Shown here piece after piece: positions 1,494 to 21,276 of a DNA stretch of 64,000 nt. Every line of letters starts with the position of its first letter. The first letter of the stretch is position 1. The notes beneath the pieces were generated by a model. The model ran no database searches. It was not told the DNA's origin and saw only the letters and a list, made by a program, of their open reading frames with translations. Source of the DNA: Thiocapsa marina 5811 (GTDB taxonomy: Bacteria; Pseudomonadota; Gammaproteobacteria; Chromatiales; Chromatiaceae); contig NZ_AFWV01000009.1 in the NCBI RefSeq assembly GCF_000223985.1, positions 186,001 through 250,000 on the forward strand, given 5' to 3'. Both the position numbers and the translations under genes were made by a program.

Positions 1494-1589
1494 GAGTCTA
1501 AGGGCAATTGACGATTCAGCGCCCTGCTGGGGTTCGCAAGCTCACCCCAGCCGACATGTTGCGGTTGCTCTTAAATCGGCCCCTATCTC

Positions 1590-1674
1590 CTGAACCGCGT
1601 CGCGCCAAGGTCGTTCCTGCGCTCCGAGGCCCGGAGCACCTCGGAGCACGCGTCTCACGGGGAACGCGGTTCAG
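1590..1674. repeat. Dispersed TRAAYCGCGTC inverted-repeat element, copy 2
   Basis: 85 bp with perfect 11 bp ends CTGAACCGCGT / ACGCGGTTCAG. It forms a pair with copy 1, 96 bp apart. The 356 bp between the porin and selO hold these two elements and no gene I can support. Confidence 0.65.
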
Positions 1675-1750
1675 TAGCGGTTCAGTTGCGAATCGCCTGG
1701 ATGGCCGCATGCCTACGGTATCGACCCACAGCCGACAGCAGACCACTCGC

Positions 1751-3238
1751 ATGCCCCAGCAGTCTATTCGCTTCGCGTTCGACAACAGCTACCGACGTCT
1801 TCCCGATCATTTTCACGCCCGCATCCATCCAACGCCCGTCACGACACCCGGCTTGATCAAGCTGAACGCAGCATTGTTTGAAGAGCTCGGCCTGGATCCG
1901 GCGGCTGCGGATCCGGACGTGGCGACCCCGCTCTTCGCCGGTAATCTCCTGCCGAACGGCGGTGATCCGATCGCGATGGCCTATGCCGGCCATCAGTTCG
2001 GCAACTTCGTCCCGCAGCTCGGAGACGGCCGGGCGATCCTGCTCGGCGAGGTGCTCGACCGGGCCGGGCAACGTCGCGACATCCAGCTGAAGGGATCCGG
2101 ACAAACGCCCTTCTCCCGCAGCGGCGACGGACGCGCGGCGCTCGGGCCCGTTCTACGCGAGTACATCCTCGCCGAAGCCATGCACGCACTCGGGATCCCG
2201 ACGACCCGTGCGCTCGCCGCCGTCACGACCGGCGAGCCTGTCTATCGCGAGACCATCCTGCCCGGCGCCATCCTGACGCGCGTTGCGAGCAGCCATATCC
2301 GCGTCGGAACCTTCCAGTATTTCGCCTCGCGCGGCGACACCGAGGCCGTGCGACATCTCGCCGATCACGTCATTGCCCGCCATTACCCGCAAGCTAGCGG
2401 GGCCGACTCGCCCTATCTCGCGCTGATCGAAGGCGTCCTGGAGCGACAAGCCGCCCTCATCGCAGCCTGGATGCACGTCGGTTTCATCCACGGCGTCATG
2501 AACACCGACAACATGGCGATCTCGGGAGAGACCATCGACTACGGGCCGTGTGCCTTCATGGACGCCTATGATCCGGCCACCGTCTTCAGCTCGATCGACC
2601 GCGGTGGCCGTTACGCCTACGGCAATCAACCGGGGATCGCCCAGTGGAACCTCGCCCGCTTCGCCGAGACCCTGCTGCCCTTGATCGACGACGCATCCGA
2701 CGCCGCAATCCAACAGGCCACCGACCTGATCCGCGGCTTCTTCGGCCGCTACGAGGAGCACTGGACCGCCGGCATGCGACGCAAACTCGGCCTCGCCACC
2801 GCCGAGCCCGAGGATGTCGACCTCATCCACGGGCTCTTGGACGCCATGAAGGCGTCGGGCGCCGACTTTACGCTGACCTTCCGTCGCCTCTGCGACGCGG
2901 CCGCGGATCCCGCGGCGGACAGCGGCGTACGCGATCTGTTCCTCGACCGGCAGGCCTACGATGCCTGGGCCGCGCAGTGGCGCGCACGTCTCGAACGAGA
3001 CCCGCAAACCCCCGCCGAGCGTGCCGAGCACATGCGCGACACCAATCCGGCGGTCATCCCGCGCAATCATCGCGTCGAGCAGGCGCTGAATGCGGCCGTC
3101 GAACAGAGCGACTTCGGACCATTCGAAGCCATCCTGCGCGTCCTCGAACGCCCCTACGAGGATCGCCCCGAGCTTGCCGGCTACACCGAGCCGCCGCAGG
3201 AGGAGGAGCGTGTTTTGAAGACCTTCTGCGGGACCTGA
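1751..3238 (+). CDS. selO: SelO/YdiU protein adenylyltransferase
   Basis: SelO family pseudokinase of 495 residues that transfers AMP to Ser, Thr or Tyr of target proteins; in bacteria it is linked to redox homeostasis. Visible family blocks include [36 protein letters not shown] with the nucleotide-contacting Lys, and HGVMNTDNM followed by DYGPCAFMD. The start at 1751 (MPQQSIRF) gives the usual family length; an open frame extends upstream to 1508 but that part has no family character and overlaps a repeat. No strong ribosome binding site is seen, so ATG at 1709 remains possible. The C-terminus ends KTFCGT, a Cys where animal homologues carry selenocysteine. Confidence 0.92.
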
Positions 3239-3449
3239 GTCGACACCGCCTGCGAAGGCCGATCATCCTGTGCCGGCCAGGCCGCAGTGTCCTTGGAGAG
3301 GTCTGATCCGACTTGGCCGGCCGCTGAATCCTCTCCATCGTCGGCCCTGGCGGAAAACCCGGAGGAGTTGGCGCGCCAGCCCGGAAGCAGGGCTTCCATT
3401 AAGGAAGTCATGCTTCATGATCACGATGCATTGTTTTTATTCGAGTTAT
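3239..3449. other. Intergenic region after selO
   Basis: Together with the regulatory region that follows, 363 bp separate selO from the next gene. Short dyads are present near 3390-3420 but none is a convincing terminator. No gene is supported here. Confidence 0.4.
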
Positions 3450-3471
3450 GTCGGCTTTCACCAAAACCGAC
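3450..3471. promoter_or_regulatory. Candidate activator-binding inverted repeat
   Basis: Imperfect 9 bp inverted repeat, GTCGGCTTT then CACC then AAAACCGAC, 56 bp upstream of the -24 element at 3528. Position and symmetry fit an upstream activator site for the sigma-54 regulator encoded two genes downstream. This is inference only. Confidence 0.3.
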
Positions 3472-3506
3472 GACGAAACAAAATCCAACCGCTACACTAA
3501 GCCATT

Positions 3507-3519
3507 GATGATTATCATC
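3507..3519. promoter_or_regulatory. Perfect 13 bp palindrome before the sigma-54 promoter
   Basis: GATGAT-T-ATCATC lies 8 bp upstream of the -24/-12 promoter. It could be an operator for a second regulator. A Fur-like half-site resemblance exists but is too weak to name. Confidence 0.3.
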
Positions 3520-3527
3520 GCCCGCCC

Positions 3528-3542
3528 TGGCACAAGCATTGC
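3528..3542 (+). promoter_or_regulatory. Sigma-54 (-24/-12) promoter
   Basis: TGGCACAAGCATTGC matches the consensus TGGCAC-N5-TTGC with GG (3529-3530) and GC (3541-3542) at the required 12 bp register. The downstream start codon is 59 nt beyond it. It would make the enzyme at 3602 dependent on RpoN and an enhancer-binding activator, and one is encoded at 4638. Confidence 0.75.
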
Positions 3543-3601
3543 GGAGCTCAGGTTGCCGTTCTCGGCCAACCGGAACACCAAATGAGGGTAGGAGAAACGC
3601 G

Positions 3602-4255
3602 ATGAGCTATCTGAAAGACGAGATCAACGCACGTGTCGATGCCTATGATCATTGGGCGACGCGTCGCCGCTTCGGACCCGACGGCCCCAACAATCGGCGG
3701 CTCTGGGTCTTGGCTTGCATGGACGAACGCCTGCCGGTCGATGAAGCACTCGGGATTCGGGTCGACAGCCCGGTGGGCGGCGGCGATGCTCATTGCTTCC
3801 GCAACGCCGGCGGGATCGTCACGGACGACGCGATCCGATCGGCGATGCTCACCTGCAACTTCTTCGGAACACAGGAGATCGTGATCGTCCAACACACCCA
3901 GTGCGGGATGCTGTCGGCAAACGCCAAGGACCTGGAAGCGGCCCTCCGGGCCAAAGGCGTCGACATCGACGCGCTGGCTCTGGATCCGACCTTGCCCGAG
4001 TTGAAGCTCGAGCCGGGCGGCTTCGCGAAATGGATCGGGATGATGGACGATGTGGACGTCACCTGCATGAAGACAGTGGAGACCTTCCGAAATCACCCCC
4101 TGATCCCGAAGGACGTGGTCGTCAGCGGCTGGGTCTGGGAGGTAGAGACCCGGCGCTTGCGCCCGCCCGTGCTCGATGACGAAAAGCGCGCCCGTACGGA
4201 TGTCACCTCCGCGCAGTTCGGCGTCACGACGCCGCAGCCCAACCGCTGGCGTTGA
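3602..4255 (+). CDS. Carbon disulfide hydrolase-like beta-carbonic-anhydrase-fold enzyme
   Basis: Zinc enzyme of 217 residues with a beta-carbonic anhydrase fold. Metal ligands are visible as Cys39 (CMDER, with the Asp41/Arg43 dyad), His98 and Cys101 (HTQCG). Blocks NNRRLWVLACMDER, RNAGGIVTDDAIRSA, NFFGT, NHPLIPKDV and EVETRRLRPP correspond, as I recall it, to the CS2 hydrolase of the archaeon Acidianus, more closely than to ordinary carbonic anhydrases. If so, it converts CS2, perhaps via COS, to CO2 and H2S, which suits a sulfur-oxidising phototroph. Relative to that enzyme there is an insert of about six residues (around residues 54-60) between CMDER and DAH. AGGAG precedes the start at 3602 by 7 nt. 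A sigma-54 promoter lies upstream and a hairpin (4262-4282) follows. Plain carbonic anhydrase or COS hydrolase activity are the alternatives. Confidence 0.85.
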   Translation: MSYLKDEINARVDAYDHWATRRRFGPDGPNNRRLWVLACMDERLPVDEALGIRVDSPVGGGDAHCFRNAGGIVTDDAIRSAMLTCNFFGTQEIVIVQHTQCGMLSANAKDLEAALRAKGVDIDALALDPTLPELKLEPGGFAKWIGMMDDVDVTCMKTVETFRNHPLIPKDVVVSGWVWEVETRRLRPPVLDDEKRARTDVTSAQFGVTTPQPNRWR

Positions 4256-4261
4256 TCGAAA

Positions 4262-4282
4262 CGGCGCCCGACTCGGGCGCCG
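4262..4282 (+). terminator. GC-rich hairpin after the CS2 hydrolase-like gene
   Basis: CGGCGCCCG-ACT-CGGGCGCCG is a 9 bp perfect stem with a 3 nt loop, 6 nt after the stop codon. No T run follows, so it may be a processing or partial terminator element rather than an intrinsic terminator. Confidence 0.4.
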
Positions 4283-4344
4283 CCTTGCCCCGCTCCACGA
4301 CACTTGCTCGACGACGGGCGTTGACATCAATAGAGAGTGCTCCG

Positions 4345-4587
4345 ATGCCGATCTACGACTACCAGTGCACCTGCTGCCAAACCTCCTTCGAGAGCTCCCG
4401 AGCCATGAGCGCCGAACCGCCACCCTGCCCCGCCTGCGGGGCCAAAACGGCTCGGGTCTTTCTCTCCGCACCCGCGGTACACGGCCGAATGGCCCGGGGT
4501 CGGGATCAGGCCGTTCGCTCGCTGCAGCCTGCCGACACGTCGCGGGGTCACCAGCATGGTCCCGGATGCGGGTGCGGGCACTCATAA
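4345..4587 (+). CDS. FmdB-family zinc ribbon protein
   Basis: Small 80-residue protein with the FmdB/CxxC_CxxC zinc ribbon: MPIYDYQCTCC at the start and CPACG at about residues 31-35. The C-terminus is His/Cys rich (HQHGPGCGCGHS) and might bind a second metal. FmdB proteins were named for a regulator of formamide/acetamide use, but the molecular role is mostly unknown. It sits between the sigma-54-driven enzyme and the sigma-54 activator, which suggests a role in the same response. The start is the conserved MPIYDY; an open frame upstream has no family features. Confidence 0.8.
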   Translation: MPIYDYQCTCCQTSFESSRAMSAEPPPCPACGAKTARVFLSAPAVHGRMARGRDQAVRSLQPADTSRGHQHGPGCGCGHS

Positions 4588-4637
4588 GGGCGCATTCTTC
4601 TTGCGCGCCGAACGATTGACCTCATCGATTATCGAAC

Positions 4638-6206
4638 ATGCCTGAAGCGACTGGATCACCGTCACGCGCGGTCGCCTTTCTCCAATCCTTTGTGTCCGAG
4701 ATCGCCAAGGCGATGGATCGGGCCGAGTGCCCCAGCTGTGCCGCTCACCTCGAGCAGATCGAGCAGATCGGCCTGACGGCCGGCGTTTGTCTGGAGGAGA
4801 AGGCTCGCGAGGTCCTCGGCTCACCCCGGCCGATGGACCGGGACCATTACGCGGACCTGATCGTCGAGATCAAGAACCAGATCGGCGGGCGATTTTCCCG
4901 TGCCTCCGGCGAGGCCGGCACGGTCAGAGTCGTCAATAGCCGATGCCCATTCGGCGAGCAGGTCAAGCATGCACCCTCGCTCTGCCGGATGACGTCGAGC
5001 GTCTTCGGCGGAATCGCCGCGCGCCACTTCGGCTATGCGAAGGTGGAGCTTCGACAGACGATCGCGGGCGGGGATGGCTCCTGCGACGTCTGCATCTATC
5101 TGGATCCGCAGCTTGCCGCGCGAAACGAGGGGACCGAATACCGGGCGGACGGAGAGCGCCTGACCTCGGGAAACCTCACCACGTTCATGACACCCAAGGT
5201 TCACCGGCGACTGCGCGAGAACTGGTGCCCGCCGCCGGTCGGTGCCGGCAGCCCCGACGCAGCCCTGCAACCGATCGTCGCGGAGTCCGCGGCGATGCGC
5301 GATGCACTGCGGGCGGTCCGGATCGTAGCGCCCACGGACGTGACCGTCATGATCACCGGCGAGACCGGCTGCGGCAAAGAGCTCGTTGCACGCGCACTGC
5401 ACGGGCTCAGTGCGCGTCGCGACAAGCCGATGGTCACGGTCAACTGCGGGGCCATCCCGGAGAACCTGGTCGAAACGGCGCTGTTCGGGCATGAGAAAGG
5501 CGCCTTCACGGGCGCTTACGAGGTCCATCACGGCTACTTCGAGCGCGCCGAGAAAGGGACGCTCTTCCTCGACGAGATCGACTCGCTCCCGCTTTCGGCG
5601 CAGGCCAAGTTGTTGCGTGTCATCCAGGAAGGCGAGTACGAACGCGTCGGCGGCAAGCGCTCCCTGCGCTCGGATGTCAGGATCATCGCCGCATCCAACC
5701 GAGAGATCGTCGCGATGGTCGACGCCGGACATTTTCGCCGCGACCTCTTCTATCGACTCAACGTCGTGCCGATCGCGATCCCGCCGTTGCGCGAGCGAAC
5801 CGAGGACATCGACGCCCTGATCACGCACATCCTCCGCAAGCTCGCCCAACGCTATGCCACTTCCGAAAAGACATTGGTGCAAGCCGCGCGCCTCAAAGCC
5901 TTGGCCTACGCCTGGCCGGGAAACATTCGAGAGATGGAGAACGTACTCGAACGCGCCTTCATCTTTGCCGCGGATGCCCGGATTACCGACATCGACGTTC
6001 CGGTGACCGCGCCGACCGAATCCGTCCCCGCATGGCGCACGCGCAAACAGCAGGCAGCCAAGCAGGCAGAGGTCGACACGCTGACCCGTGCACTGAGGGT
6101 CAGTCACGGCAATGTCGATCAAATCGCGACCCAGATGGGGATCACGCCGCGAGCGGTCCGCATGAAGCTCAAGGCGCAAGGACTCAGGGCTGCGGACTAC
6201 AGGTAG
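4638..6206 (+). CDS. Sigma-54-dependent activator with Cys-rich sensor domain
   Basis: Enhancer-binding protein of 522 residues. Residues about 1-200 form a sensor with CPSC (31-34), Cys103 (CPFGE), Cys116 and Cys149, a pattern that resembles the V4R/methanogen-output-domain type of small-ligand or redox-sensing fold. Residues about 210-440 are the AAA+ domain: Walker A GETGCGKE, GAFTGA loop at 288-293, Walker B GTLFLDEID. The C-terminus has a Fis-type helix-turn-helix (HGNVDQIATQMGITPRAVR). GAFTGA is intact, so it should remodel sigma-54 polymerase. There is no response-regulator receiver domain, so the signal probably binds directly to the Cys-rich domain. Its likely target is the sigma-54 promoter at 3528; the ligand may be CS2, COS or another sulfur compound (inference). 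Confidence 0.88.
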   Translation: MPEATGSPSRAVAFLQSFVSEIAKAMDRAECPSCAAHLEQIEQIGLTAGVCLEEKAREVLGSPRPMDRDHYADLIVEIKNQIGGRFSRASGEAGTVRVVNSRCPFGEQVKHAPSLCRMTSSVFGGIAARHFGYAKVELRQTIAGGDGSCDVCIYLDPQLAARNEGTEYRADGERLTSGNLTTFMTPKVHRRLRENWCPPPVGAGSPDAALQPIVAESAAMRDALRAVRIVAPTDVTVMITGETGCGKELVARALHGLSARRDKPMVTVNCGAIPENLVETALFGHEKGAFTGAYEVHHGYFERAEKGTLFLDEIDSLPLSAQAKLLRVIQEGEYERVGGKRSLRSDVRIIAASNREIVAMVDAGHFRRDLFYRLNVVPIAIPPLRERTEDIDALITHILRKLAQRYATSEKTLVQAARLKALAYAWPGNIREMENVLERAFIFAADARITDIDVPVTAPTESVPAWRTRKQQAAKQAEVDTLTRALRVSHGNVDQIATQMGITPRAVRMKLKAQGLRAADYR

Positions 6207-6232
6207 GGTCTCGACGGCTGCGCCGTCGGTCA

Positions 6233-6895
6233 TCAAAGACGCCCCGCTTCCAGAAAGCTGAAATAGGCCGTACGGTTGAAGATGATGTGATCGAGCAACC
6301 CGATTCCAAGCAGGGCACCCGCGGCCTTGAGCTGCCGGGTCACCTCGAGATCTGCCGGCGACGGCTCCAGACTCCCGGCAGGATGGTTGTGGGCGACGAT
6401 CACGGCCGAGGCCCGGTCGGTCAAGGCGTCGGCGAAGACCTCGCGCGGATGAACGTGCGTGCGGTCGACCAGACCGATGGACACGACCCGGATGTTGATG
6501 ATCTCGTTCGCCCCGTTGACGCTGGCACAGAGGAAATGCTCTTGCCTGCGGTCGGCATAGTGGCGCACATGCGGCAACAAGTCGGCCGGCGTCTCGATCC
6601 TTGCCCCGTCGGGCTTAATGCGGCGACGCGCAAACTCCAAGGCCGCCATCACCAAGGTCGCCTTCGCGTCGCCGATGCCGTCGAGGCTACGCAGGTCGTC
6701 CGCCTCCACCTCGAGCCCCTTCTCGTCGATGACCCTGGCCAGTTTGCCTGCAAGCGCCATCACATCCGTGCCCGGTGTGCCCTTGCCGAGCAGCACGGCC
6801 AAGAGCTCCTGATCGCTCAGCGCACCCGCGCCCTTTCGGAGCAGTTTCTCGCGCGGCCGGTCAGCCGCCGGGATGTCGCAAATTCGCTTGCCCAT
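6233..6895 (-). CDS. radC: RadC/JAB-domain protein
   Basis: Full-length 220-residue RadC family protein: an N-terminal helix-hairpin-helix part (SLDGIGDAKA) and a C-terminal JAMM/MPN metalloprotease-like domain with HVHPREVF and the AHNHPAG...PSPAD motif. The old assignment to DNA repair is doubtful for the family; many members sit on mobile islands. It lies 4 nt beyond the hsdR stop on the same strand, so it could be co-transcribed with R-M system 1, and converges on the sigma-54 activator gene. Confidence 0.9.
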   Translation of the reverse strand: MGKRICDIPAADRPREKLLRKGAGALSDQELLAVLLGKGTPGTDVMALAGKLARVIDEKGLEVEADDLRSLDGIGDAKATLVMAALEFARRRIKPDGARIETPADLLPHVRHYADRRQEHFLCASVNGANEIINIRVVSIGLVDRTHVHPREVFADALTDRASAVIVAHNHPAGSLEPSPADLEVTRQLKAAGALLGIGLLDHIIFNRTAYFSFLEAGRL

Positions 6896-6899
6896 CCCG

Positions 6900-9836
6900 T
6901 CAGGCTGCGACAGCGAGATGGGTCTGGATGACCGTGATAGCCATGATGTCGAAGATACCGCCGGTGTCGGTGTATTTGAGATCGGCCAGCTCCTCGTAAC
7001 GCGCCAGATCGCTGTAGATGCCCTGAATCTCGCCGTTCACTTGTCCGCGATAGGCGCCTTCGAGGTAGAGCCGGTCCTCTCGATGCGCCTGCACGGTCCC
7101 GCGGATGGTCGGATCAGCGACCTTTTGCTCGGTGACCTGTTTGATGTAGAGCGCTTCTTCGTCGCTGATGGCAAACCTGGTCCGAATCTCCTCGATCATG
7201 TCTTGGACGGAGATCTTCCGCGGCGGCGGCCCCGCCCCCCGTTTGGCACCGCCGGGGCGGAGCTTCACCTCGCCGCCTGCGTGTCGCACCTCACCCTGAT
7301 ACTCGACGGCGGCCTTGATGACCTCGGTTCGACGGATCTGCTTCATCAGCTCCGAAACGCTGCCGGGCTTGATGAGCTGGGGACCGACATAGGCCGTGAA
7401 GGCCACAAATTCGCGGATCTCCTGCGGATAGGTGACGAAGCAGGTCAAGAAGTGGAACGCCTTGACCAGTCTGACCAAGAGATAGACGTAGCCCTTGCGG
7501 TCGTCGCCTGACGGAAAGTGGGCCTGGAACCGCACGCGCAGGGCACTCACGAGGAATTGCACCTGAGCATCCGTAGCACTCGCGACCCTGTCGACGAAGT
7601 CGCGGGCGTCGGCCTGCGTGAATGGGCCCGCGCTCAGGATCTCGGCATGTAAGCGGATGCACAGCTCGGGGTCCGGCTCGTCGGGCTCGAACGGCGTGCC
7701 CTTGCGATACCGGGCAAAGGCATTGAGGATGGCGGCCGCGTTGTTGGTGAAATCCACCACGACCACATCCTGCTTGCCCTCGTGGCAGCGATTCAGGCGC
7801 GAGACCGTCTGCACCGCGTTGCGGTCCGCGACGGATTTATCGAGGAACATCCCGGCCAGCAGCGGTTGATCGAAACCCGTCTGGAACTTGCTGGCCACCA
7901 CCATCAAACGGTAATCGTCGCCCTCGAAGCGGTCCTCGATCAGCTCGCCGTCCGCGAGCCCGTTGACCGCATGCTCGCTGATCGCCTCGTTTGTCTCAGG
8001 GTGAAAGAAATCCGAGAAGGCATAGAGCACCTTGTAGTCGGCACCGCGCTCCTTGAGCTTCTCCCGAAGGATGTTGAAATAGCGCAATCCAGCCACGCGC
8101 GAGGTGGCGACGATCATCGCCTTGGCCCGCCCTCCGATCAGCGGTTTCACGGTCTCCTCGAAGATCCGGAGCATCACCTCCGCCTTGTACTGGATCAGCC
8201 CGTCGTCTTGGAACGCGACGTTCTGCAACGCCTTGGCGATGACACCTTTCGGATACAGCGGCTCCCGATTCGGCGCCGGGACGATCGGGCAATGCAGGTT
8301 GTAGAGCGTCTTGTACGAGATGATGCTCGCGGCTACGTCGACGATGTAGCCCTCGGCGATGGCTTCGGCCTCGGTGTAGCTGTCGAAGGGATCGCCGAAA
8401 AGGGTCACCGTGGCCGGGGACGGCGTGGCGGTAAAGGCGACGAAAAGCTGGTTGCGGTCGTGCTCGCGGATGATCCGGGCGATGGTCTCCTCCGCGTCCT
8501 TGTCGTCGCCCTCGGCGTCCTCCACATCCGGATCTGCCGACGCGCGAAACGGCACGCGGATGGCCACCCCCATCCGTCCCTCTTGCGAACGATGGGCCTC
8601 GTCGATCAGAAAGGCCACCCGCAGACCCTCGAGGTCCGGATTATTCTCGATCTGCTCCAGCACCCAGACGAACTTCTGCTGGGTAGTGACGATGATCGAC
8701 TTACGCTCCTTCAGGAAGCACGGCAGATGGTCCGCCTTGCGTGCCAGACCCACCAGGCCCTTGAGGTGCGTGAAGTTCTCGAGATCGTCCCGGATATTGG
8801 TATCGAGCGATTTGCGGTCCGTCAGGATGAAGACGATGTCCACCAGCTTCTCGCCGGTGCCCGGCTTGAAGAGGCTGTGAAGCCGGTCCGCAAGCCAACA
8901 GATGGAGAGCGTCTTGCCGCTCCCGGCCGAATGGTCGATCAGATACTTCCGACCGATGTCGCCCGACGCCGCAAAGTGTGCCGCGGCATCGTCCGCGACC
9001 TTCCGCACCATGCGGCTCTGGTGATAACGCGGCAGGATGGTGAAGGCCGGACGTTCCGGCTTGTCGTCCTCGGCCTCGCGGTACGGCACCCGAACCAGGA
9101 AGAAGGACAGCATTTCGAGCAACTGGTCCTGCGAGAGCACCTCGCGGTACAGAAACTCGATCGGGTACTCGCCGTCGGTCTGCGGCCGATTAATCAACCC
9201 GCTGTTGTGCCAACGGAAGTTCTCGGCGCGGCGCGGGTCGCTCGCGGCCATCACATCGCTCGTGTCCGCGGCGAGATAGAGAAACGGATGTTGGAAGATC
9301 TTGTGGGCGTGGTCTCGCGCGGCAAACTGCGCGACGGCGTCGTGAACGCTCTGGTTTTTCTCGTGCTTCAGCTCCAGCACGACGATCGGCAGACCATTCA
9401 GGAAGAGGACGATATCGATCTCTTGGTTGGTCTTGCCGAAATAGAAGTGCGGCCGGAAGCTGATGCGGTTCTCCGCGTGCTTCGTCGCCGCAGCGCTCTC
9501 GCTCGAACGGGGTTTCGGATAGTAGAGGCGCAACTCCAGACCGCGCACCTTCAGCCCGTGGCGCAGGATCATCCAGAGCGGTGTGTGCTCGAGCGCCTTG
9601 CGCAGCGCGCGAAAGACCTCGTCGCGTGCGTCGGTGCCGTAGTCATCGACGAGCTTGCGGAGCTGATCGGACTGGGTGGCCGCGAGGAAGCTCCAGAGTT
9701 CCTCTTCAGCGATGGCGTTCTCGGTGTCCGTGATGTCGGACTGTTCGAGCACGCCATAGCCGTGCACACGCACCAGGAAGGCCGCGATGTGCTGCTGAAA
9801 GCTCAGCTCCGGGATGTGCCGTCGACCTTTTGCCAT
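6900..9836 (-). CDS. hsdR: Type I restriction endonuclease, R subunit (system 1)
   Basis: HsdR of 978 residues, the motor and nuclease subunit. The N-terminal PD-(D/E)xK nuclease core is visible as EIDIVLF followed by VVLELKHE. The helicase part shows Walker A AGSGKT, DEAH box LIDEAHRSQ and motif III FTATP. The C-terminus carries the helical HsdS/M-contact region. The start MAKGRRHIPELSFQQH (9836) fits HsdR family members; the frame stays open to 10016 but without family features. It depends on HsdS (10053) and on an HsdM whose gene here is truncated, so restriction activity is doubtful unless another M subunit substitutes. Confidence 0.92.
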   Translation of the reverse strand: MAKGRRHIPELSFQQHIAAFLVRVHGYGVLEQSDITDTENAIAEEELWSFLAATQSDQLRKLVDDYGTDARDEVFRALRKALEHTPLWMILRHGLKVRGLELRLYYPKPRSSESAAATKHAENRISFRPHFYFGKTNQEIDIVLFLNGLPIVVLELKHEKNQSVHDAVAQFAARDHAHKIFQHPFLYLAADTSDVMAASDPRRAENFRWHNSGLINRPQTDGEYPIEFLYREVLSQDQLLEMLSFFLVRVPYREAEDDKPERPAFTILPRYHQSRMVRKVADDAAAHFAASGDIGRKYLIDHSAGSGKTLSICWLADRLHSLFKPGTGEKLVDIVFILTDRKSLDTNIRDDLENFTHLKGLVGLARKADHLPCFLKERKSIIVTTQQKFVWVLEQIENNPDLEGLRVAFLIDEAHRSQEGRMGVAIRVPFRASADPDVEDAEGDDKDAEETIARIIREHDRNQLFVAFTATPSPATVTLFGDPFDSYTEAEAIAEGYIVDVAASIISYKTLYNLHCPIVPAPNREPLYPKGVIAKALQNVAFQDDGLIQYKAEVMLRIFEETVKPLIGGRAKAMIVATSRVAGLRYFNILREKLKERGADYKVLYAFSDFFHPETNEAISEHAVNGLADGELIEDRFEGDDYRLMVVASKFQTGFDQPLLAGMFLDKSVADRNAVQTVSRLNRCHEGKQDVVVVDFTNNAAAILNAFARYRKGTPFEPDEPDPELCIRLHAEILSAGPFTQADARDFVDRVASATDAQVQFLVSALRVRFQAHFPSGDDRKGYVYLLVRLVKAFHFLTCFVTYPQEIREFVAFTAYVGPQLIKPGSVSELMKQIRRTEVIKAAVEYQGEVRHAGGEVKLRPGGAKRGAGPPPRKISVQDMIEEIRTRFAISDEEALYIKQVTEQKVADPTIRGTVQAHREDRLYLEGAYRGQVNGEIQGIYSDLARYEELADLKYTDTGGIFDIMAITVIQTHLAVAA

Positions 9837-10052
9837 GTCGGATCTCGATTCCCTGATCGTCGTTCCGGCCCTAATCGATGCACACGGATGGACGACGTGT
9901 GCCTTGAATCCTGTCTGGTTCCAAAGTCTCTCACGGAGACACGGAGTGCACCAAGAGCATGTCTCTGTTTCTCCGCGTGCTGCGTGAGGCTTTCCGCGCC
10001 GGAACCAAGGCGCCAACCTAAACCGAGAGGTGACAAGCGAATTGTGCTTCGA
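9837..10052. other. hsdR-hsdS intergenic region
   Basis: 216 bp gap in the otherwise tight operon. Around 9928-9990 it contains partly palindromic CACGGAGACACGGAG and CTCCGCG-type sequence, a kind of dispersed intergenic repeat. No gene is supported. Confidence 0.35.
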
Positions 10053-11354
10053 TCAGGCGTGCGCTGCGACTCGCTCCACATCCGCCGCCGTGATCCGCCG
10101 CTGTCCGGTCACGCATTCATGAATCAGGGATTTTCGGTACGCAGTAAGCGTGCCGATCTGGCGCTCAATGATGGCGATTGTTTCCTTCACGTTTCCTAAT
10201 TTTGTGTCGAGATAGTCACAGATCGCGCGCTGTTCATCAAATGGTGGTAACGGAATCAGCATCCGAGAATAACGGGTCGAGTTCAGATTGGACTGCTGGA
10301 CCGATGGAATTGCCAGTTTCCTTGCAAATGAGAGAAACCCTTCACTGTTAGCCACGTAGTTCAGAAACTCGGGCATAATTCGGTGATTGACCCGTAAGCG
10401 AACCAAATATGACGCAAACGTGACTCCGTCGTCCTCTTTGCCACGAAACAGGGCAGCCTTTCCGACCTGGTCTGGGCTGTTCGTTCGGTTGTAAAGCAAA
10501 TCGTTGTGGGCAAGCAGCAAGTCCTCGGTAACCTCCTGGACAAACTCCATCTTCGAAAAGACGATCTCGCCGGCTTGAATATTCCCCATCTTGAGGACCG
10601 CGTGCCTTCCCTCAGGCTCGGTCCGAACCGAGATTCCGTAATCTAAACGCGAGACAAGCCGTTTAATTCGAGTGACCGACCACCGATCAGGCAGCGACCC
10701 GATCCAGTCCTGATCAATCTTGGTATGCCGCGCATGCGCACTCAACCCTTGTGTGACAGCCTTTTCGATAATACTTGCTCTGAGAAGATCCAGCCTGGCG
10801 ATCTGCCGCCGCTTGGTGGCCGCCGCCGCGTCGATTGCTGCGCAGCTCGCGTCCAGGTAATCGGCGATGCGCTCCTGCTCCGACAGCGGAGGCATCGGAA
10901 CCTCAAGCGCATTAAAATCCCTGTCGTCGACTGCTGGATAACCGACACCCTTTGCTGTAGCTTCGAAATATTGTCGAGCCGAATCTGAAACTAAGGTGTA
11001 ATAGGCAAACCTCGACTTGAAATGCCAGTCTTTCGGCTGAACGACATTGAACCCGGTAGAACAAACGAGTTGTTCCATACCGCCATCGATCAAGACAATT
11101 GATTGCAGGTTCGGTCGGACCGATGAAACCAGTATATCGCCTCGCTGCACTAGCCTACGAGCTCGCGAAGGCGCAACCGCATAACGCAATCGCGGGATTG
11201 CCGTGGCATCGATCACGCCGCGAAAATCGACATTCGAGATCTCTAGATAGTCAAATTCGAAGTCCGGATCTGTACTCGCCGCCAATGATCTACCATTGAT
11301 AGTGGCCACGTCCTTCAGCCGATCACTCTTCCAGTAATTAGGCATCCATGTCAT
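10053..11354 (-). CDS. hsdS: Type I restriction specificity subunit (system 1)
   Basis: HsdS of 433 residues, giving DNA sequence specificity. It has two target-recognition domains, each followed by the conserved coiled-coil helix: SEQERIADYLDA in the middle and DEQRAICDYLDTKL near the C-terminus. ATG at 11354 has AAGG 9 nt upstream; a GTG start at 11372 would add six residues. It is visibly more AT-rich than the flanking hsdR and hsdM, as is common for exchanged specificity genes. The gene is separated by 88 nt from the YhcG-type gene and by 216 nt from hsdR. Confidence 0.9.
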   Translation of the reverse strand: MTWMPNYWKSDRLKDVATINGRSLAASTDPDFEFDYLEISNVDFRGVIDATAIPRLRYAVAPSRARRLVQRGDILVSSVRPNLQSIVLIDGGMEQLVCSTGFNVVQPKDWHFKSRFAYYTLVSDSARQYFEATAKGVGYPAVDDRDFNALEVPMPPLSEQERIADYLDASCAAIDAAAATKRRQIARLDLLRASIIEKAVTQGLSAHARHTKIDQDWIGSLPDRWSVTRIKRLVSRLDYGISVRTEPEGRHAVLKMGNIQAGEIVFSKMEFVQEVTEDLLLAHNDLLYNRTNSPDQVGKAALFRGKEDDGVTFASYLVRLRVNHRIMPEFLNYVANSEGFLSFARKLAIPSVQQSNLNSTRYSRMLIPLPPFDEQRAICDYLDTKLGNVKETIAIIERQIGTLTAYRKSLIHECVTGQRRITAADVERVAAHA

Positions 11355-11442
11355 TTCAACGAACCTTCGCACATCTTCGTCAGGCCAACCTTAAGAAATT
11401 GAAAAAAGATCATTTTTTGAGCATGAACTTGGATTGGTAAAT

Positions 11443-12603
11443 CTACAGTTCAGCCGGAAGCGCAGCCCTGACCACCGCAGCAAGCTGCTCCGCACTCGGC
11501 AACCGCCCCTTCAGCTCACCGGGCAGCCTGGAATGCAGCTCATAAGTCGCCACTCCGATCGGGTTTGCCTTGCTGCGCAGGGCGTATTCCACCTCCACAT
11601 CGTCTTTCTCGGCGCAGAGGATGATCCCGATCGAGGGGTTGTCCTCGGGTGGGCGTTCGGTGTCGTTGAGCAGGTTGAGATAGAAATCCATCTTGCCCGC
11701 ATGCTCGGGCTCGAACGGACCGACCTTCAGCTCGAAGGCGACCAGCGCGCGCAGGAAACGATGGTAGAAGAGCAGATCGATGAAATACTCCTTCTCGCCG
11801 AGAACGAGTCGGTATTGGCGACCCACGAAACAGAAGCCGTAGCCCAGCTCCAAGAGGAAATCACGCAGTCGTTGGATCAGCCGATCCTCGAGCTCGCGCT
11901 CCTGGACCGCTTGACGCAGGCCGAGAAATTCCAGGTTGTAGGCGCTTTTGAGCATCTCCTCCGCCTGCTCCGAAAGATGCTCGGGCAGGGCGAGATCGAA
12001 GTTGTGGGTCTTTTTCTCCACCCTGGCCCGCTCGTAAGCTCCGGCCTTGATCTGATTGAGCAAGACATTGCGCGACCAGCCGAGTCGGGCGGTAGCCCGA
12101 AGGTAGTACAGACGGGCGGCCGGGTCGTCGGTCTTCTTAATCAAGAGAAGGTGATGTCCCCAAGGTACCCTGGACAGAAGTGCAAGGTCCGGGGTGGACG
12201 CTGTTTTGGTTTCTGGGACAGCGTGTCCCAGAATCGCGGCTCCCGACCCGTCAATGGCGCCAAGGGTACTTCCCGGGACAGCCCGTCCCGGAACCTCCGC
12301 ATCCGCATAGGTGAGATAAAACTGCCGCATCCGCCACACATTGTCCGCGGAGAAGCTTCGGGTGGCGGGAAACGACCGGCGCAGCTCCGCGGCCACCATC
12401 TCGACCACCGAATCACCCCACCCGTGCGCCCGCTGACGCTCTGTGATGGCGCGACCGATCTCCCAATACAGAAGGATAGCAGCGCGGTTGACGGCAGTTG
12501 CCGCAGAGACCCGAGCCGAGACGATCAGGACTTTGAGGTCCTCGACCAGCCGAGAATACTCCGGGGCAGAGGCTACGGCGGGATCCGATTCGGGCGTCTT
12601 CAC
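11443..12603 (-). CDS. YhcG-family (DUF1016) PD-(D/E)xK nuclease-domain protein
   Basis: 386-residue protein of the YhcG/DUF1016 family. The N-terminal part (RAAILLYWEIGRAI...GWG...SFSADNVWRMRQFY) is the helical YhcG_N region; the C-terminal part has a PD-(D/E)xK nuclease core with EYFIDLLFYH followed by VAFELKVG. Its start overlaps the hsdM stop by 4 nt (ATGA), so the two are translationally coupled, which ties this nuclease to the R-M system. The middle (residues about 100-135) looks like an in-frame insertion encoded by two GGGAC-type hairpins at 12211-12293 (AVPG...AVPE repeats). Exact activity is unknown; family members have been linked to recombination-promoting or defence functions. 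Confidence 0.85.
   Translation of the reverse strand: MKTPESDPAVASAPEYSRLVEDLKVLIVSARVSAATAVNRAAILLYWEIGRAITERQRAHGWGDSVVEMVAAELRRSFPATRSFSADNVWRMRQFYLTYADAEVPGRAVPGSTLGAIDGSGAAILGHAVPETKTASTPDLALLSRVPWGHHLLLIKKTDDPAARLYYLRATARLGWSRNVLLNQIKAGAYERARVEKKTHNFDLALPEHLSEQAEEMLKSAYNLEFLGLRQAVQERELEDRLIQRLRDFLLELGYGFCFVGRQYRLVLGEKEYFIDLLFYHRFLRALVAFELKVGPFEPEHAGKMDFYLNLLNDTERPPEDNPSIGIILCAEKDDVEVEYALRSKANPIGVATYELHSRLPGELKGRLPSAEQLAAVVRAALPAEL
12211..12293. repeat. Two GGGACA hairpins inside a coding region
   Basis: TTCTGGGACA-GCG-TGTCCCAGAA (12211-12233) is a perfect 10 bp stem. A second, imperfect one with TTCCCGGGAC and GTCCCGGAA lies at 12270-12293. Both stay in frame with the YhcG-family gene. 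Confidence 0.6.
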
Positions 12604-13904
12604 TGCGCCAACCCCTCCAATAGCGTCTCCGCCTCCTTCTCCAGGCGCCAGAATTCGGCGAGCAGCTCATTCGCCGGCTTGGGCGGCTGGTAGCGGTAGA
12701 AGTACTTGTTCGGCAGGATCTCGTAGCCGAGCTGCGGGCTGTCCTGCCAGCGGATGATCGGCTTGGCGATCTCGCGGTCCAGAAACGCCTCGATGTCCTC
12801 GCCGAAGGGGATGTATTCGTCGTCCTTCACATAGTGCCGGTGGGTCCAGTCGACGGCCAGCACCTGTGGCTTGTCCTGCATGAGCGCCTTGAACTGGCGA
12901 GCCGCGTTGTCCTTCGGACCAAGGGTGAACGTCCGCGTCGTCTCGGTCTCGCCGATCTTCAGCCGCACGCGAAAGGTCAGCTCGCTGTCGTAAAACTCCT
13001 GCTCCTTCTTGAGGTTCACCGCCGTGAACGCCTTCTCGTAGGGCTCGGTGACGGTGGCGGGCCGGTCGTTTTCGTCCAACTGCCAGAAGACGACGCTGAC
13101 CTTGTGGTAGGCGAAGTCTTCGCGCCGGAAGCACTTGACCTGCTCGTCGACGAAGCCCTCCGCCCAGCCTTCGCGGTAGCGCTCTTGGATCCAGGCACGG
13201 TGACCATCGCTGATGCGGTTGCGCTTGTTGCCGAAGGATCTGGGCTCCTTCTGGTACTGCTGGCGGGCGTCGATCAGCATCACGCGGCCGCGGTGGGAGG
13301 CCGGCTTGTCGTTGCGCAAAAGCCAGATATAGGTGTAGATGCCGGTGTTGTAGAAGAGCTGATCGGGCAGCATCAGGATGGCGTCGAGCCAGTCGTTCTC
13401 CAGGATCCAGCGTCGGATCTCGCTCTCGCCCGAGCCGCAATCGCCGTTGGAGAGCGGCGAGCCGTTGAAGATGATGGCGATGCGGCTTGCGCCCTTCTCC
13501 GGCTGCTTCATCTTGGCCAGCATGGTTTGCAGGAACAGCAGCGCGCCGTCGTTCACGCGCGGCATGCCGGCTCGATAGCGCGACTTGACCAGCTTGCGCG
13601 CCTCGGTCTCATAGCCGTCCTTGCCGCCCCAGGTCACGCCGAAGGGCGGGTTGGAGAGCATGAAGTCGAAACGGTATCCCGCTTCCGGAAGCTGATCGCC
13701 CGGCTCGCGGCTGTGGGGGTCGTGCGGGATCAGCGAGTTGCCGAGATAGACCTTGGCTTGCCGGTCGTTCTTGATCAGCAAGTCGGCCTGACAGATGGCG
13801 TAGTTGGACGAAGCCGCTTCGCGGAGAAGGCCCATGCCGGCCTCGTCGGCTTTAAACTGCAACCTCACGCCCTCGCTTGCGAGGGGTCGTCTGTTCACGA
13901 TCAT
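12600..13904 (-). pseudogene. hsdM: Type I DNA methyltransferase hsdM, 5'-truncated (system 1)
   Basis: C-terminal about 420 residues of an N6-adenine methyltransferase. Motif IV is present as FMLSNPPFG, followed by the typical ILMLPDQLFYNTGIYTYIW. The N-terminal HsdM helical domain and the SAM-binding motif I that should precede motif IV are absent. Recognisable sequence begins at VRLQFKADEAG, directly next to the hairpin that ends the IS91-class element; the first dozen codons are element-derived. The remainder of hsdM is not found on the other side of the element. Without motif I it should not bind S-adenosylmethionine, so methylation by system 1 is probably lost. Confidence 0.85.
13870..13885. 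repeat. Terminal hairpin of the IS91-class element (left)
   Basis: CCCTCGC-TT-GCGAGGG, a perfect 7 bp stem at the hsdM junction. IS91-like rolling-circle elements carry such subterminal hairpins instead of classical inverted repeats. Confidence 0.5.
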
Positions 13905-13918
13905 GAGGTTACACCACC

Positions 13919-14826
13919 ATGTCCAACTCCTGCGAAGAGCGCTTCAAACATCACTACGAGGCCCATCTCAAGCACCTTCGACTCAAGGGGCTGCAGCCCA
14001 AGACCATCGAAGCCTACGCCCGCGCCGTGCGCCGCATCGGCGCCTATTTTGACGGCTGCATCGAGGATCTGTCCGAGCAGCAGTTACTCGACTACTTTTC
14101 CGATCGGCTCCAAACCAACTCCTGGAGTGCCGTCAAACTCGACCTCTACGGGTTGAAGTTCTACTACGCCCATGTGCTGCGCAAGCCTTGGGTGAACGTG
14201 GACCTGATCAAACCACCCAAGGGTCAGCGCTTGCCCGATATCGTGACGGTCGAGGAGGCCCGGCGTCTGATTCAAACAACGCAGACACTCAGCTATCGCG
14301 TCTTCTTCTTCACCCTCTACAGCCTCGGTCTGCGACTGGGCGAGGGGCTGCGTCTGAGCGTGGCCGATATCGACGCGGCGCGTCGGCGCGTGCACATCCG
14401 TGATGCTAAGGGCAACAAGGATCGCTTGGTCCCACTGCCCGATACAACGCTCGAGCTGCTGCGCCGCTTTTGGCGGTTGCATCGCAACCCGGTGCTGCTG
14501 TTTCCCAATCGCCACGGCGGACTCAAGGCGGCGGCCTCGGCCTGCACCCCGCTGGATCGCGGCGGCGTGCAGGTGGCCCTGCGCAAGGTCGTCGCGGCGT
14601 GCGGGATTAAAAAAAGATCACGCCCCATAGTCTGCGTCACAGCTATGCCACACATCTGATCGAGGCCGGTGTCGATCTGCTGGAGGTGCAGAAGATCCTC
14701 GGTCATCACTCCATCCTCACCACCGCCCGCTATACCCACCTGACCCGTCAGACCGGCGGCAACGCCGAGCAGGCCATCAACACCTTGATGAGCGGCTTCT
14801 CCATCCACTGGAGGGGCGTGAAATGA
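13919..14826 (+). CDS. Tyrosine recombinase/integrase with -1 frame interruption at A7G
   Basis: XerC/D-like tyrosine recombinase of about 302 residues if read across a -1 shift. The first frame (13919-14659) carries the SAM-like N-terminal domain, catalytic Arg ([11 protein letters not shown]) and Lys (GNKDR). The second frame, from about 14614 to the stop at 14824-14826, carries the [10 protein letters not shown] motif, GHH and nucleophile Tyr (TARYTHL). The switch lies at seven A's plus G (14609-14616). Frame-zero codons there are ATT AAA AAA AGA, so the classic tandem-slip phase is not met exactly; transcriptional slippage or a one-base loss from an A8 run are equally possible. The stop overlaps the transposase ATG (ATGA), indicating coupled expression. 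Confidence 0.8.
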
Positions 14827-15932
14827 TCCTGCTCTCCGCCATCATCGCCACCTTCGAGGCGGACTACCTCGCCCGGTATGGTGAGACGATCCTGCCCAGT
14901 CAGCTCAATGCCCTTCACGCCCTGAAGCGCTGCCGCACCTCGGCCAGCCCCTTGATGCGGGCGCAGTGCAGCGCGTGCGATCACACCGAACTCGTCCCGC
15001 ACTCCTGCGGTCATCGTGCCTGTCCGCACTGTCAGCACCACGAGAGCCAGCGCTGGCTCGAGCGTCAGCTTGCCAAGCAGGTACCGGCGACCTATTTCCT
15101 GCTCACCTTCACCGTGCCCGAGGCACTGCGCCCGCTGGCGTGGTCCAACCAGCAGAGGCTCTACGATCACCTCATCCGCGCGAGTTGGGAGACGGTGCGC
15201 ACCTTCGCGCGCAATGACACGCAGTTGCAGGGTGAGGCCGGGGCGATTGCAGTGCTCCATACCCATTCGCGGCGACTGGATTTCCATCCCCACGTTCATC
15301 TGGTGGTGCCCGCGGCGGCCCTTGATCCGGACAAGAAACGCTGGCGCACCAAGTCGGGCAAGCGCGGCTATCTGTTCAATCACAAGGCCCTGGCCAAGGT
15401 CTTCCGCGCCAAGCTGCTCGCGGCCATCGCCGCCGAGGGACTGACCCTCCCGCCCGGCCTGACGAGCACCTGGGTCGTCGATTGCAAGAACGTCGGCCGT
15501 GGCGAGAAGGCGCTGGTCTATCTGGGGCGTTACCTCTATCGCGGCGTCATCCAGGAGAAGGACATCGTCGCCTGCGAGAACGGCCAGGTAACCTTTCGCT
15601 ACCGCCATGCCAAGCGCAAGCGCTTCGAATACCGCACCCTGCCGGGGGCGCGCTTCCTCGCCTTGGTGCTCCAGCATGTCTTGCTAAAAGGGTTTCGCCG
15701 GGCCCGCAACTTCGGCTTTCTGCATCCCAACAGCAAGCGCGCCATTGCACTGCTGCAGTGGCTCTTCGGACTCGATCCGAAGCGCCTGATCGCTCAACTC
15801 AGGCCACGGCCCCAGCTGAAATGCCCGTGCTGCGGCGCCGCGATGCGCATCGTGCAGACACGCCTTCCGCCGCACTCGCCACAACCGACCCTGCCGCCAA
15901 CCCTCGAGGCGCCCGAGGCACTGGCGATGTAA
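14823..15932 (+). CDS. tnpA: IS91-family HUH transposase
   Basis: 369-residue rolling-circle transposase. The N-terminal zinc-binding domain shows QCSAC, HRACPHC and flanking Cys/His residues; the metal-binding HUH motif is HPHVHLVV; the catalytic tyrosines lie in [10 protein letters not shown] second CPCC pair sits near the C-terminus. These elements nick and transfer one strand and often mobilise or delete adjacent DNA in one-ended events, consistent with the two truncated genes on either side. Its start overlaps the recombinase stop by 4 nt. Confidence 0.92.
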
Positions 15933-16108
15933 CCGCCGGCGACACGGCGAGCCCCGGACTTCGGCTTCCACGGGGCGAGGGTGGCGCTCGCCTCCAATTC
16001 AGGCACAATGCACACCTTGAGCGCCTTGGGGCGCCATGTTCACCGCGATGGCGAGCTTGGCAGCCGGGGTTGCGCAGCTCCTCGCTCGTCTCCAGGCTCA
16101 ACGACCCA

Positions 16109-16990
16109 TCAGCCTCGAAAAGCTATTTTCTCTCTCCCCTCCGCACCGCCGTGATCACGGGCTCGTCCAACAAACGGTTCAGATCGTCGCTCGCTTCGCT
16201 CGGACGATCTAACCTTATTCGTTATATCGAAAGCTCCATAGAACATCGATATTCCGGAAGGGCTCATCCTGTTCGGATATTTGGCGCGGTCTAGTGGGGG
16301 AGAGCCAAGACGCTTCGATGTCGTAAGCGATTCTTTGGGGTCTACAATATGGACGCGATATAGTTTTGAGGTCGTGTTGATTGCATCGATTAGGCCAATA
16401 TCCTCGACCATGTGTGCAAGTGCGTCGAGGATTTTGACCGGATGCATTTCATCATGTTGAAACTCATCATAGCTCTTAGGCGTAGCGCTCAAGAAGACGT
16501 ATCTCGCTTCGTGCATTACGAATTTCGAGAAGCCTTTCCACCCATAATAGAGCGTTTGATCTCTTCTTAGTGCAAAAGGATCGCGCTCACACCATTCGTC
16601 ATCGTTTAGTGCCGAGTTTATCTGTTCCTGTAAATCCCCGTTCAGCGCATATAGGCCAACGTTCCCCAATAGCTCCCATGAGTCTATTACCGCACCTTGC
16701 CATCCTCCTTCTCTTGTTTCATAAGGTAGTCCCTCGTCGGCCGGTTGCCCCCATTCTGTCCTAATGCAGGACATTGCGTGATCCAGCAATTCTTCCAGTG
16801 TGCAAGTACCTTCGCCGACTGTCCCACAATACGTGCACGGGGTTGTACCGCCGCTGTTTCTAATGAAATCCCGTAACGCTTCTTCGTCAAAGCAATCGGG
16901 GCACACCACAATGTTCTCATCAACTGCGAAGCCTCGTTCCATGGCTTCTTCCCACATTCGCTTGGCTTGTCCCATGGTGACCTTGTGCAT
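16109..16990 (-). pseudogene. RES-domain toxin-like protein, 3'-truncated
   Basis: The N-terminal about 200 residues match the HEPN/RES-associated N-terminal domain, with a zinc-knuckle-like CPDC...CTYC. Residues about 209-255 begin a RES domain (YRVHIVDPKE, NRMSPSGISMFYGAFD). Homology ends at about 16217-16226; the last roughly 38 codons (SERSERRSEPF...) are read from the IS91-class element end. RES toxins degrade NAD+, and the catalytic fold needs residues downstream of this point, so the protein is almost surely inactive. AT-rich composition differs from the neighbours. No separate antitoxin is seen. Confidence 0.75.
16181..16210. repeat. Terminal hairpin of the IS91-class element (right)
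   Basis: AGATCGTC (16181-16188) and GACGATCT (16203-16210) form a perfect 8 bp stem. The truncated RES coding sequence begins within about 10-20 bp. Confidence 0.45.
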
Positions 16991-17022
16991 CTAAAAGTGG
17001 ATTAGACAGAGTGTCGGTCAGG

Positions 17023-17063
17023 TGAGATAGACGGAATCTGTCTATCTCAGTCGGGACAGATTC
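17023..17063. repeat. Overlapping, mutually exclusive hairpins upstream of the RES gene
   Basis: TGAGATAGAC (17023-17032) pairs with GTCTATCTCA (17040-17049). GAATCTGTC (17034-17042) can instead pair with GACAGATTC (17055-17063). The arms overlap, so only one hairpin can form at a time. They lie 33 bp upstream of the RES start on the minus strand. Confidence 0.5.
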
Positions 17064-17400
17064 TGCCTAGCCGGTGTCTCATTTTTCCGGGCGTCGTCTC
17101 GTCACCTGCACAATGACCATACACGATGTCCGGCATCGAGACGCTAGCAGATCATGGGCGTGGCGACAACTCAGACCCGGTCGGTCGATCCCGGTGGCGG
17201 TGTGCCCAAGGGCTGGGTCGAGTGAGGGGACAGATCTTACGCCGTGGCCCTTGCTCCAGATAGCGGCTCCCGCCCGCTCTCCCTTGGGGAATGAGGCGAT
17301 CATCCGTTCATCGGCCTGCGCCAACTGAACGTTCGGGCTGCTCCAGCGCTTCGAGTGCAAGCTGCGCCTGGATGCCGTCGGGATGCTCCAGCAGGCATCG

Positions 17401-17447
17401 GGGTCACGTCTTGAAATCACGCATTGCGTGATTTCAAGACGTGTCCC
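17401..17447. repeat. 47 bp near-perfect palindrome
   Basis: Two 23 nt arms around a single central base (17424), with one mismatch at the fourth position of each arm. The core arm is CACGTCTTGAAATCACGCA. It resembles the palindromic repeats that accompany REP-associated (Y1/IS200-like) transposases, but no transposase gene is adjacent. Confidence 0.7.
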
Positions 17448-17566
17448 TATGTTCCCCCGCATCAGCTGACCGACCCGTTGGCGGGTCACCCCTGCGATCT
17501 TCCTTCCTTTGCTCGTGCTCGGTCCTATGACTGCTTTGGGGTTTGGTCGACATCAACGGGGAGCGG

Positions 17567-20436: not shown

Positions 20437-20463
20437 TGAAGCGGTTGCGGTGGAATTCCCTGG

Positions 20464-20491
20464 TCCGGGGTTCGGGGTCCGGGGTTCGGGG
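20464..20491. repeat. 14 bp perfect tandem duplication
   Basis: TCCGGGGTTCGGGG twice in a row, in the short gap between the uma2 gene and hsdM. Confidence 0.8.
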
Positions 20492-20512
20492 CTAAATGCA
20501 CGGTTCGTGAGG

Positions 20513-21091: not shown

Positions 21092-21276
21092 CATGGCCTC
21101 CAATGGGTGCGGCGGATGGTTCCGCGTCGATTATAGCGACGCCGGGGGCGGGCTGAAGTCGGCGTACCCGGAGGCGCGGCGCCTCGGGTGCGGCGCGACA
21201 TGCGCTCGGTCACGGTAAAGAGCCGTCATCCAGAATCAGGTTGCTGGCTTTGCGTCTGCGCCCGCGATGCGGTTGC

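Follow-up and report, generated by a model that had tools for sequence, protein, structure and literature searches.

We analysed a 64,000-nucleotide stretch of the genome of Thiocapsa marina 5811 (contig NZ_AFWV01000009.1, positions 186,001 to 250,000; hereafter the window), part of a 5.59-Mb assembly in 62 contigs, and found three adjacent genes that probably form a self-contained, inducible hydrolase cassette for carbon disulfide (CS2), and probably also for carbonyl sulfide (COS), under its own sigma-54 activator. The gene content, protein family, promoter, enhancer and conservation are read from the sequence, and from these we infer the substrate in Thiocapsa, the inducer, the role of FmdB and the purpose of the cassette. 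Its predicted elements are:

3383..3397, no strand: predicted enhancer (upstream activating sequence, UAS), dyad 1, GGAAGCAGGGCTTCC, from the dyad search
3403..3417, no strand: second dyad of the predicted UAS, GGAAGTCATGCTTCA, spaced 20 bp from the first
3528..3542, + strand: -24/-12 (sigma-54) promoter element TGGCAC-N5-TTGC, an exact match, scored across loci
3602..4255, + strand: predicted CS2-hydrolase-type beta-carbonic anhydrase, 217 amino acids (aa), open reading frame (ORF) with ATG at 3602, from Pro_CA, structure match and tree
4345..4587, + strand: FmdB-type zinc ribbon with His/Cys-rich C-terminal tail, 80 aa, ORF with ATG at 4345, from TIGR02605
4638..6206, + strand: sigma-54 activator, 522 aa, with MetOD1/V4R-like sensor, AAA+ domain with GAFTGA and Fis-type helix-turn-helix (HTH)

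Enzyme family and gene linkage

A preliminary description of this DNA, made from the letters alone, had called the first gene product a CS2 hydrolase-like enzyme sharing long blocks and both zinc Cys/His contexts with the Acidianus enzyme, and this was borne out. Pfam assigned the protein to Pro_CA only. In a search of solved structures, the best relative was the Acidianus CS2 hydrolase (3ten, E=1e-49), compared with E=9.7e-22 for the next structure (3las) and E=4.1e-18 for the COS hydrolase of Thiobacillus thioparus (3vqj). The window enzyme and the Acidianus protein were identical at 92 of 174 aligned residues (53%), and the zinc residues C39, H98 and C101, as well as D41, R43 and F87/F88, lay at the expected positions. 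All 106 homologues examined contained CMDER...HTxCGM (101 by one pattern, the remaining five reading HTGCGM), and all 106 kept the Phe-Phe motif (87-88 in the window enzyme), which is named as characteristic of CS2 hydrolase in the portion consulted of PMC6382920. In a tree of 117 rows, whose bootstrap was not fully settled (0.970) and in which 3ten formed a long branch and 3vqj covered 37% of the columns, 89 homologues lay beyond one branch (99/94) and 27 other beta-carbonic anhydrase or COS hydrolase rows beyond another (100/99), with 3ten between the two groups. The tree proposed in the preliminary description thus did not place the enzyme among ordinary carbonic anhydrases or with the COS hydrolase, and its assignment as CS2-hydrolase-type, apart from both, is supported at the level of sequence.

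The enzyme itself is of a known kind. It resembles the CS2 hydrolase of Acidianus A1-3 (3TEN/3TEO) in identity, zinc contexts and Phe-Phe motif, but differs from it in two insertions, P26 D27 (PD) and S56-G61 (SPVGGG), a longer C-terminus and bacterial sigma-54 control. Acidithiobacillus thiooxidans S1p, in the Smeulders 2013 study, reportedly has insertions PD and TPAGGG at the corresponding places, which are said to prevent the catenane, the enzyme being an octamer. By the insertion positions, the window enzyme may be of the S1p type. The A. thiooxidans enzymes are also bacterial CS2 hydrolases, but host and habitat differ from those of the window. The COS hydrolase of T. thioparus THI115 (3VQJ) shares the clade D beta-carbonic anhydrase fold family and activity on a one-carbon (C1) sulfur compound, but its similarity was weaker (E 4e-18) and it fell on the opposite side of the tree. 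The window enzyme was 99% identical to the copy in a Thiocapsa metagenome-assembled genome and 98% to that of T. roseopersicina DSM 217; two homologues (L131/L132) were without the two insertions. As side observations, a protein grouping with the COS hydrolase of T. thioparus occurred in two other Chromatiaceae genomes (L111, L112) and would add another C1-sulfur route in this family, and haloarchaeal megaplasmids (L150 from Halopiger and two more) carried enzyme relatives at 46-48% identity that are annotated as carbonic anhydrase.

For gene order and distribution, we kept 80 (74-99% identical) of the 114 relatives found in genome contigs, and gene order was scored on 88 locus rows, in which at least three places were counted twice. 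FmdB followed directly on the same strand in 83 of the 88 rows, and an activator was near the enzyme in 79 (80 after follow-up); its gene was divergent in 29 rows and co-directional in the others. Within the Chromatiaceae, 7 of 146 genomes carried the enzyme (one a fragment), and FmdB and activator were both present in 7/7, so the linkage of the three genes, whose conservation in this family the preliminary description had proposed to check, held there. Two enzyme-free genomes of the genus Thiocapsa (G071, G123) had no MetOD1 activator either; both kept SelO, showed no module and gave no RadC match in the fetched stretch, so no exact empty site was found. A third genome of the genus (G139, locus L141) had lost the stretch equal to window 3364-4030, which holds the enhancer, the promoter and enzyme residues 1 to about 143; its FmdB and activator were still 99% identical, pointing to a recent loss. 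Two genomes (G726, G612) carried the enzyme without activator or FmdB within 11 kb.

The module is not phototroph-specific. Among the 54 of the 80 relatives with a family- or genus-level name were 29 ammonia oxidisers, 8 methanotrophs, 3 actinobacteria and 14 others, mostly sulfur oxidisers. The enzyme occurred in 35 of 125 genomes of the Nitrosomonadaceae (the family of Nitrosospira briensis); a class-wide sample that included our own genome gave 13 of 369 (p=3e-13, uncorrected for relatedness). An enrichment in methanotrophs was unsupported, the family of Methylobacter luteus having 12 carriers in 201 genomes against the same sample (Fisher p=0.20). Of 72,556 plasmid records, five contained an enzyme relative, and the one from Methylobacter sp. 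YRD-M1 was the cassette beside insertion sequences.

The second gene was correctly described as an FmdB-type zinc ribbon 3' of the enzyme: its product (4345-4587) scored over the cut-off of TIGR02605 (E=2.1e-14) and also belonged to the Zn_ribbon_8 family. The His/Cys-rich tail with a C-x(1,2)-C pattern was present in 100 of 101 module FmdBs. We rejected it as a mark unique to them, since 2 of 11 other FmdBs (12 tried) had the same pattern; two that missed it had CC and a later Cys. A ZIP transporter gene stood between FmdB and activator in Methylomonas and Methylobacter, and 3/3 mycobacterial enzymes (L081, L082, L151), which had no FmdB or activator alongside, carried a YHS metal-binding domain fused at the C-terminus. 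We infer that FmdB probably aids zinc supply or insertion.

Promoter, tandem dyads and activator

The element at 3528-3542, described earlier as a near-perfect -24/-12 promoter, was the sole exact match to TGGCAC-N5-TTGC on both strands of the window. Shuffled windows had a mean of 0.11 exact matches and 11 of 100 shuffles held at least one, so by itself the element is no more than suggestive; what gives it weight is its conservation. With a hand-made -24/-12 score applied to 91 distinct 320-bp upstream regions and 1510 control windows elsewhere in the same loci, a score of at least 18 was reached in 80/91 upstream regions versus 57/1510 controls (3/91 on the reverse strand), and a score of at least 20 in 69/91 versus 24/1510. 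Promoter and activator went together: after follow-up, 79 loci had both, 8 had neither, one had the promoter only (L062) and three the activator only (L063, the deleted G139 and L127). The first count gave five promoter-only loci, four of which were stretches ending too early. For five of the eight loci with neither and for L062, contig ends lie nearby and absence of the activator is not provable (L017, L046, L061, L062, L065, L083). The eight also include three actinobacterial loci; actinobacteria are not known to have sigma-54. At L127, an inserted ORF, presumably an IS256-type transposase, separates promoter and dyads from the enzyme. One genome of the ammonia-oxidiser family has a transposase-like ORF (L178 9114-10361) between them, with both signals intact beyond it.

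When the 180 bp ahead of the promoter were searched without bias for spaced 4-base dyads, GAAG-N5-CTTC ranked first, with exact copies in 47 of 80 regions versus 0.33 per shuffled set. In the window, the dyad occurs twice with a spacing of 20 bp, lying about 117 and 137 bp 5' of the promoter element; at 3383-3417, the two copies sit just left of the boundary of the preliminary description, which missed them. With a pair defined as two dyads 19-22 bp apart, each matching at least 8 of 10 positions, tandem pairs were found in 48/91 loci versus 12/1232 control windows, and 44 of 50 pairs were spaced at exactly 20 bp. The strict tandem pattern occurred once in the 5.59-Mb genome, at the cassette (weaker sites elsewhere were not sought), and the activator therefore looks dedicated to the cassette. 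These dyads are the predicted enhancer of the cassette activator and are new here.

The activator consists of a sensor (about residues 1-200), an AAA+ domain and a Fis-type HTH (476-512), and Pfam recognised MetOD1 (E=5e-13, residues 65-153), Sigma54_activat (E=1.6e-68) and HTH_8. The earlier claim of an intact GAFTGA and a Cys-rich sensor was confirmed, with GAFTGA at residues 288-293 and C103, C116 and C149 invariant among 36 aligned homologues. By Pfam, the sensor is MetOD1 and not V4R, with a fold likeness to V4R at a template modelling (TM) score of about 0.5. In the sections consulted of PMC5847659, MetOD1 is named in methanogen proteins and likened to H-NOX, V4R (PoxR, MopR) and ATC hydrolase, with a shared three-Cys cluster. 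The full-length model (predicted local distance difference test, pLDDT, 79.7) gave DmpR as its best fold match (E=6e-29, 474 columns), and a model of the sensor alone (pLDDT 77.6) matched, in order, Bet3/TRAPPC3, PoxR, MopR (TM 0.51) and H-NOX. By these modest matches, which name no ligand, the sensor would belong to a known ligand-binding fold superfamily, and this fits a small-ligand sensor. The phenol-type activators DmpR, PoxR, MopR and XylR likewise combine a sensor with AAA+ and Fis-type HTH domains, but the cassette activator differs in its MetOD1 sensor, three invariant cysteines and new predicted enhancer, and it is no phenol sensor by sequence. Our genome has one rpoN, and its one MetOD1 protein is the cassette activator; in some other carriers, an additional MetOD1 sigma-54 activator is encoded at a distance from the enzyme gene (L054 15163-16647, G168, G177 and G155, of L180 type). 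An AAA+ domain with GAFTGA, a Fis-type HTH, a genomic rpoN and a -24/-12 element at the target mark the protein as a sigma-54 activator. The switching of the enzyme gene by its neighbouring activator, proposed earlier, is supported by the co-occurrence of promoter and activator, the tandem enhancer and the single rpoN and MetOD1 genes, at the level of predicted elements.

Proposed mechanism and alternative readings

In the mechanism we propose, the activator, a one-component regulator like DmpR and XylR, would bind a small ligand at a V4R-like three-cysteine site; CS2, COS or one of their products is the most likely candidate. From the tandem enhancer it would then act on RNA polymerase-sigma54 at the -24/-12 promoter and open it. 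The zinc enzyme would be made and would hydrolyse CS2 via COS to CO2 and H2S, with FmdB co-made and probably helping zinc supply or insertion. The H2S may be used for sulfur oxidation in Thiocapsa; the role of the cassette in ammonia oxidisers would more likely be to remove an inhibitor.

Several observations weigh against this mechanism. The loci are related and the counts not independent; 43 of 91 loci had no tandem pair, and isolated weak dyads (matching at 8 of 10 positions) occurred in 577/1232 control windows, which is why only pairs or exact dyads count. Some homologous activators have GAFTDA or GAFTNA, and the MetOD1 match covers only profile positions 50-141 of 142. The full-length match to DmpR has a root-mean-square deviation of 19.9 A, owing to a different placement of the domains; the sensor resembles PoxR only modestly (TM 0.52, 5.6 A, E 2e-3, 11% identity), and its four fold matches under E 0.001 are all TRAPP subunits. 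The genes flanking the Thiocapsa cassette (SelO, RadC and type I restriction genes) give no link to sulfur metabolism.

Other readings differ in substrate or inducer. It seems rather doubtful that the circuit, otherwise unchanged, naturally acts on and responds to COS, for example from thiocyanate breakdown or the atmosphere, instead of CS2. Thiohalobacter thiocyanaticus is among the carriers, and the parts consulted of PMC8209446 and PMC7308577 place CS2 hydrolases and the COS hydrolase in a common clade D of beta-carbonic anhydrases, both COS-active, but the window enzyme groups with the Acidianus CS2 hydrolase and away from the COS hydrolase of T. thioparus, all 106 homologues examined keep the Phe-Phe motif characteristic of CS2 hydrolase, and L111 and L112 encode separate COS-hydrolase-like proteins. 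We regard it as unlikely that the three cysteines of the activator serve to detect sulfide, persulfide, redox state or zinc rather than a C1-sulfur compound, with the cassette belonging to a general response to sulfide or metals. The invariance of these cysteines, the zinc-related partners (ZIP gene, YHS fusion) and the genes for sulfide oxidation that follow the cassette of ammonia oxidisers would suit such a sensor, but the strict tandem enhancer at the cassette only (weaker sites in the genome not sought) argues against a general regulon, and MetOD1 is kin to V4R sensors of small organic ligands in what was consulted of PMC5847659. An ordinary carbonic anhydrase for CO2 is highly improbable: the sole Pfam assignment and the plasmid annotations would allow it, but the tree and the best solved relative point to a CS2 hydrolase, the genome has two further Pro_CA genes, and characterised CS2 hydrolases have negligible or no CO2 hydration according to the part of PMC8209446 consulted.

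The purpose of the CS2 hydrolase cassette may differ between hosts. Thiocapsa is a sulfide oxidiser. CS2 has been reported to inhibit ammonia monooxygenase (AMO), and 12 of the 29 named ammonia oxidisers had a sulfide:quinone-reductase (SQR)-like gene within the fetched stretch. Overall, an SQR-like cluster was present in 17/88 loci (13 same-strand downstream), TauE lay downstream in 12/88, and a Blh-type sulfur dioxygenase was near the enzyme in 7 loci, directly behind FmdB in 4. These families were tested on representatives only, which scored 166-186 bits for SQR_III (under the cut-off of 525) and 387-400 bits for Blh (under 625), with TauE over its cut-off. PF02461, the family of AMO and particulate methane monooxygenase (pMMO), was found in 11 of 39 genomes (covering 40 of the 80 loci), with zero in named ammonia oxidisers such as Nitrosospira briensis; amo is thus missing from these assemblies, the correlate is uninformative, and ammonia oxidisers were assigned by taxon name instead. 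Since CS2 reportedly inhibits AMO and sulfide-oxidising genes often follow the cassette, a defence role is attractive in nitrifiers. We tentatively suggest a mobile, self-regulated circuit by which ammonia oxidisers and some methanotrophs may sense and destroy CS2 before it inactivates their copper monooxygenase (AMO, perhaps pMMO), and which phototrophs and sulfur oxidisers may employ to feed on CS2. It is likewise only a possibility that the ammonia-oxidiser operon, often enzyme-FmdB-(sulfur dioxygenase)-SQR-TauE, converts CS2 to CO2 and to oxidised sulfur that is then exported. The preliminary description had H2S feeding sulfur oxidation; this stands as one plausible role of two, inhibitor removal being the other, because the module is rarer in Chromatiaceae (7/146) than in Nitrosomonadaceae (35/125). 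In Thiocapsa, use of a CS2-derived electron donor is as likely as a defence role.

Locus surroundings and meaning of the cassette

Further features of the locus are:

1556-3238: flanking SelO
4262..4282, + strand: G+C-rich hairpin directly past the enzyme stop codon, own z-score -0.6, not significant
6233-6895: flanking RadC

Many homologues also had a hairpin 3' of the enzyme, with weak significance (mean z -1.5, with 21 of 75 intergenic regions of homologous loci below -2), and Rfam gave no match on window 3200-6400. Shortly 3' of the cassette, window 6900-24669 contains type I restriction genes, HsdR- and HsdS-like, in two sets.

No description of the regulated cassette was found in the literature searched, whose reach did not include the 2013 A. 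thiooxidans study; as far as our searches reach, the regulated, zinc-associated and widely shared cassette and its enhancer are undescribed. The same literature gave no paper joining 'CS2 hydrolase' with 'Nitrosomonas' and did not name nitrifiers as CS2 consumers.

Both CS2 and COS rank as major trace gases of sulfur. The enzyme, FmdB, the MetOD1 activator, the tandem dyad and the -24/-12 element together allow carriers to be detected in any genome, and these marks point to nitrifiers as candidate CS2 consumers. Removal of CS2 could protect key enzymes in ammonia- and methane-oxidising bacteria. With the cassette, a candidate sensor for a toxic industrial solvent also becomes available for testing, and the MetOD1 domain and one FmdB subfamily would gain a first functional setting. 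If the defence role is true, MetOD1 would become the first sensor known for a C1-sulfur gas.

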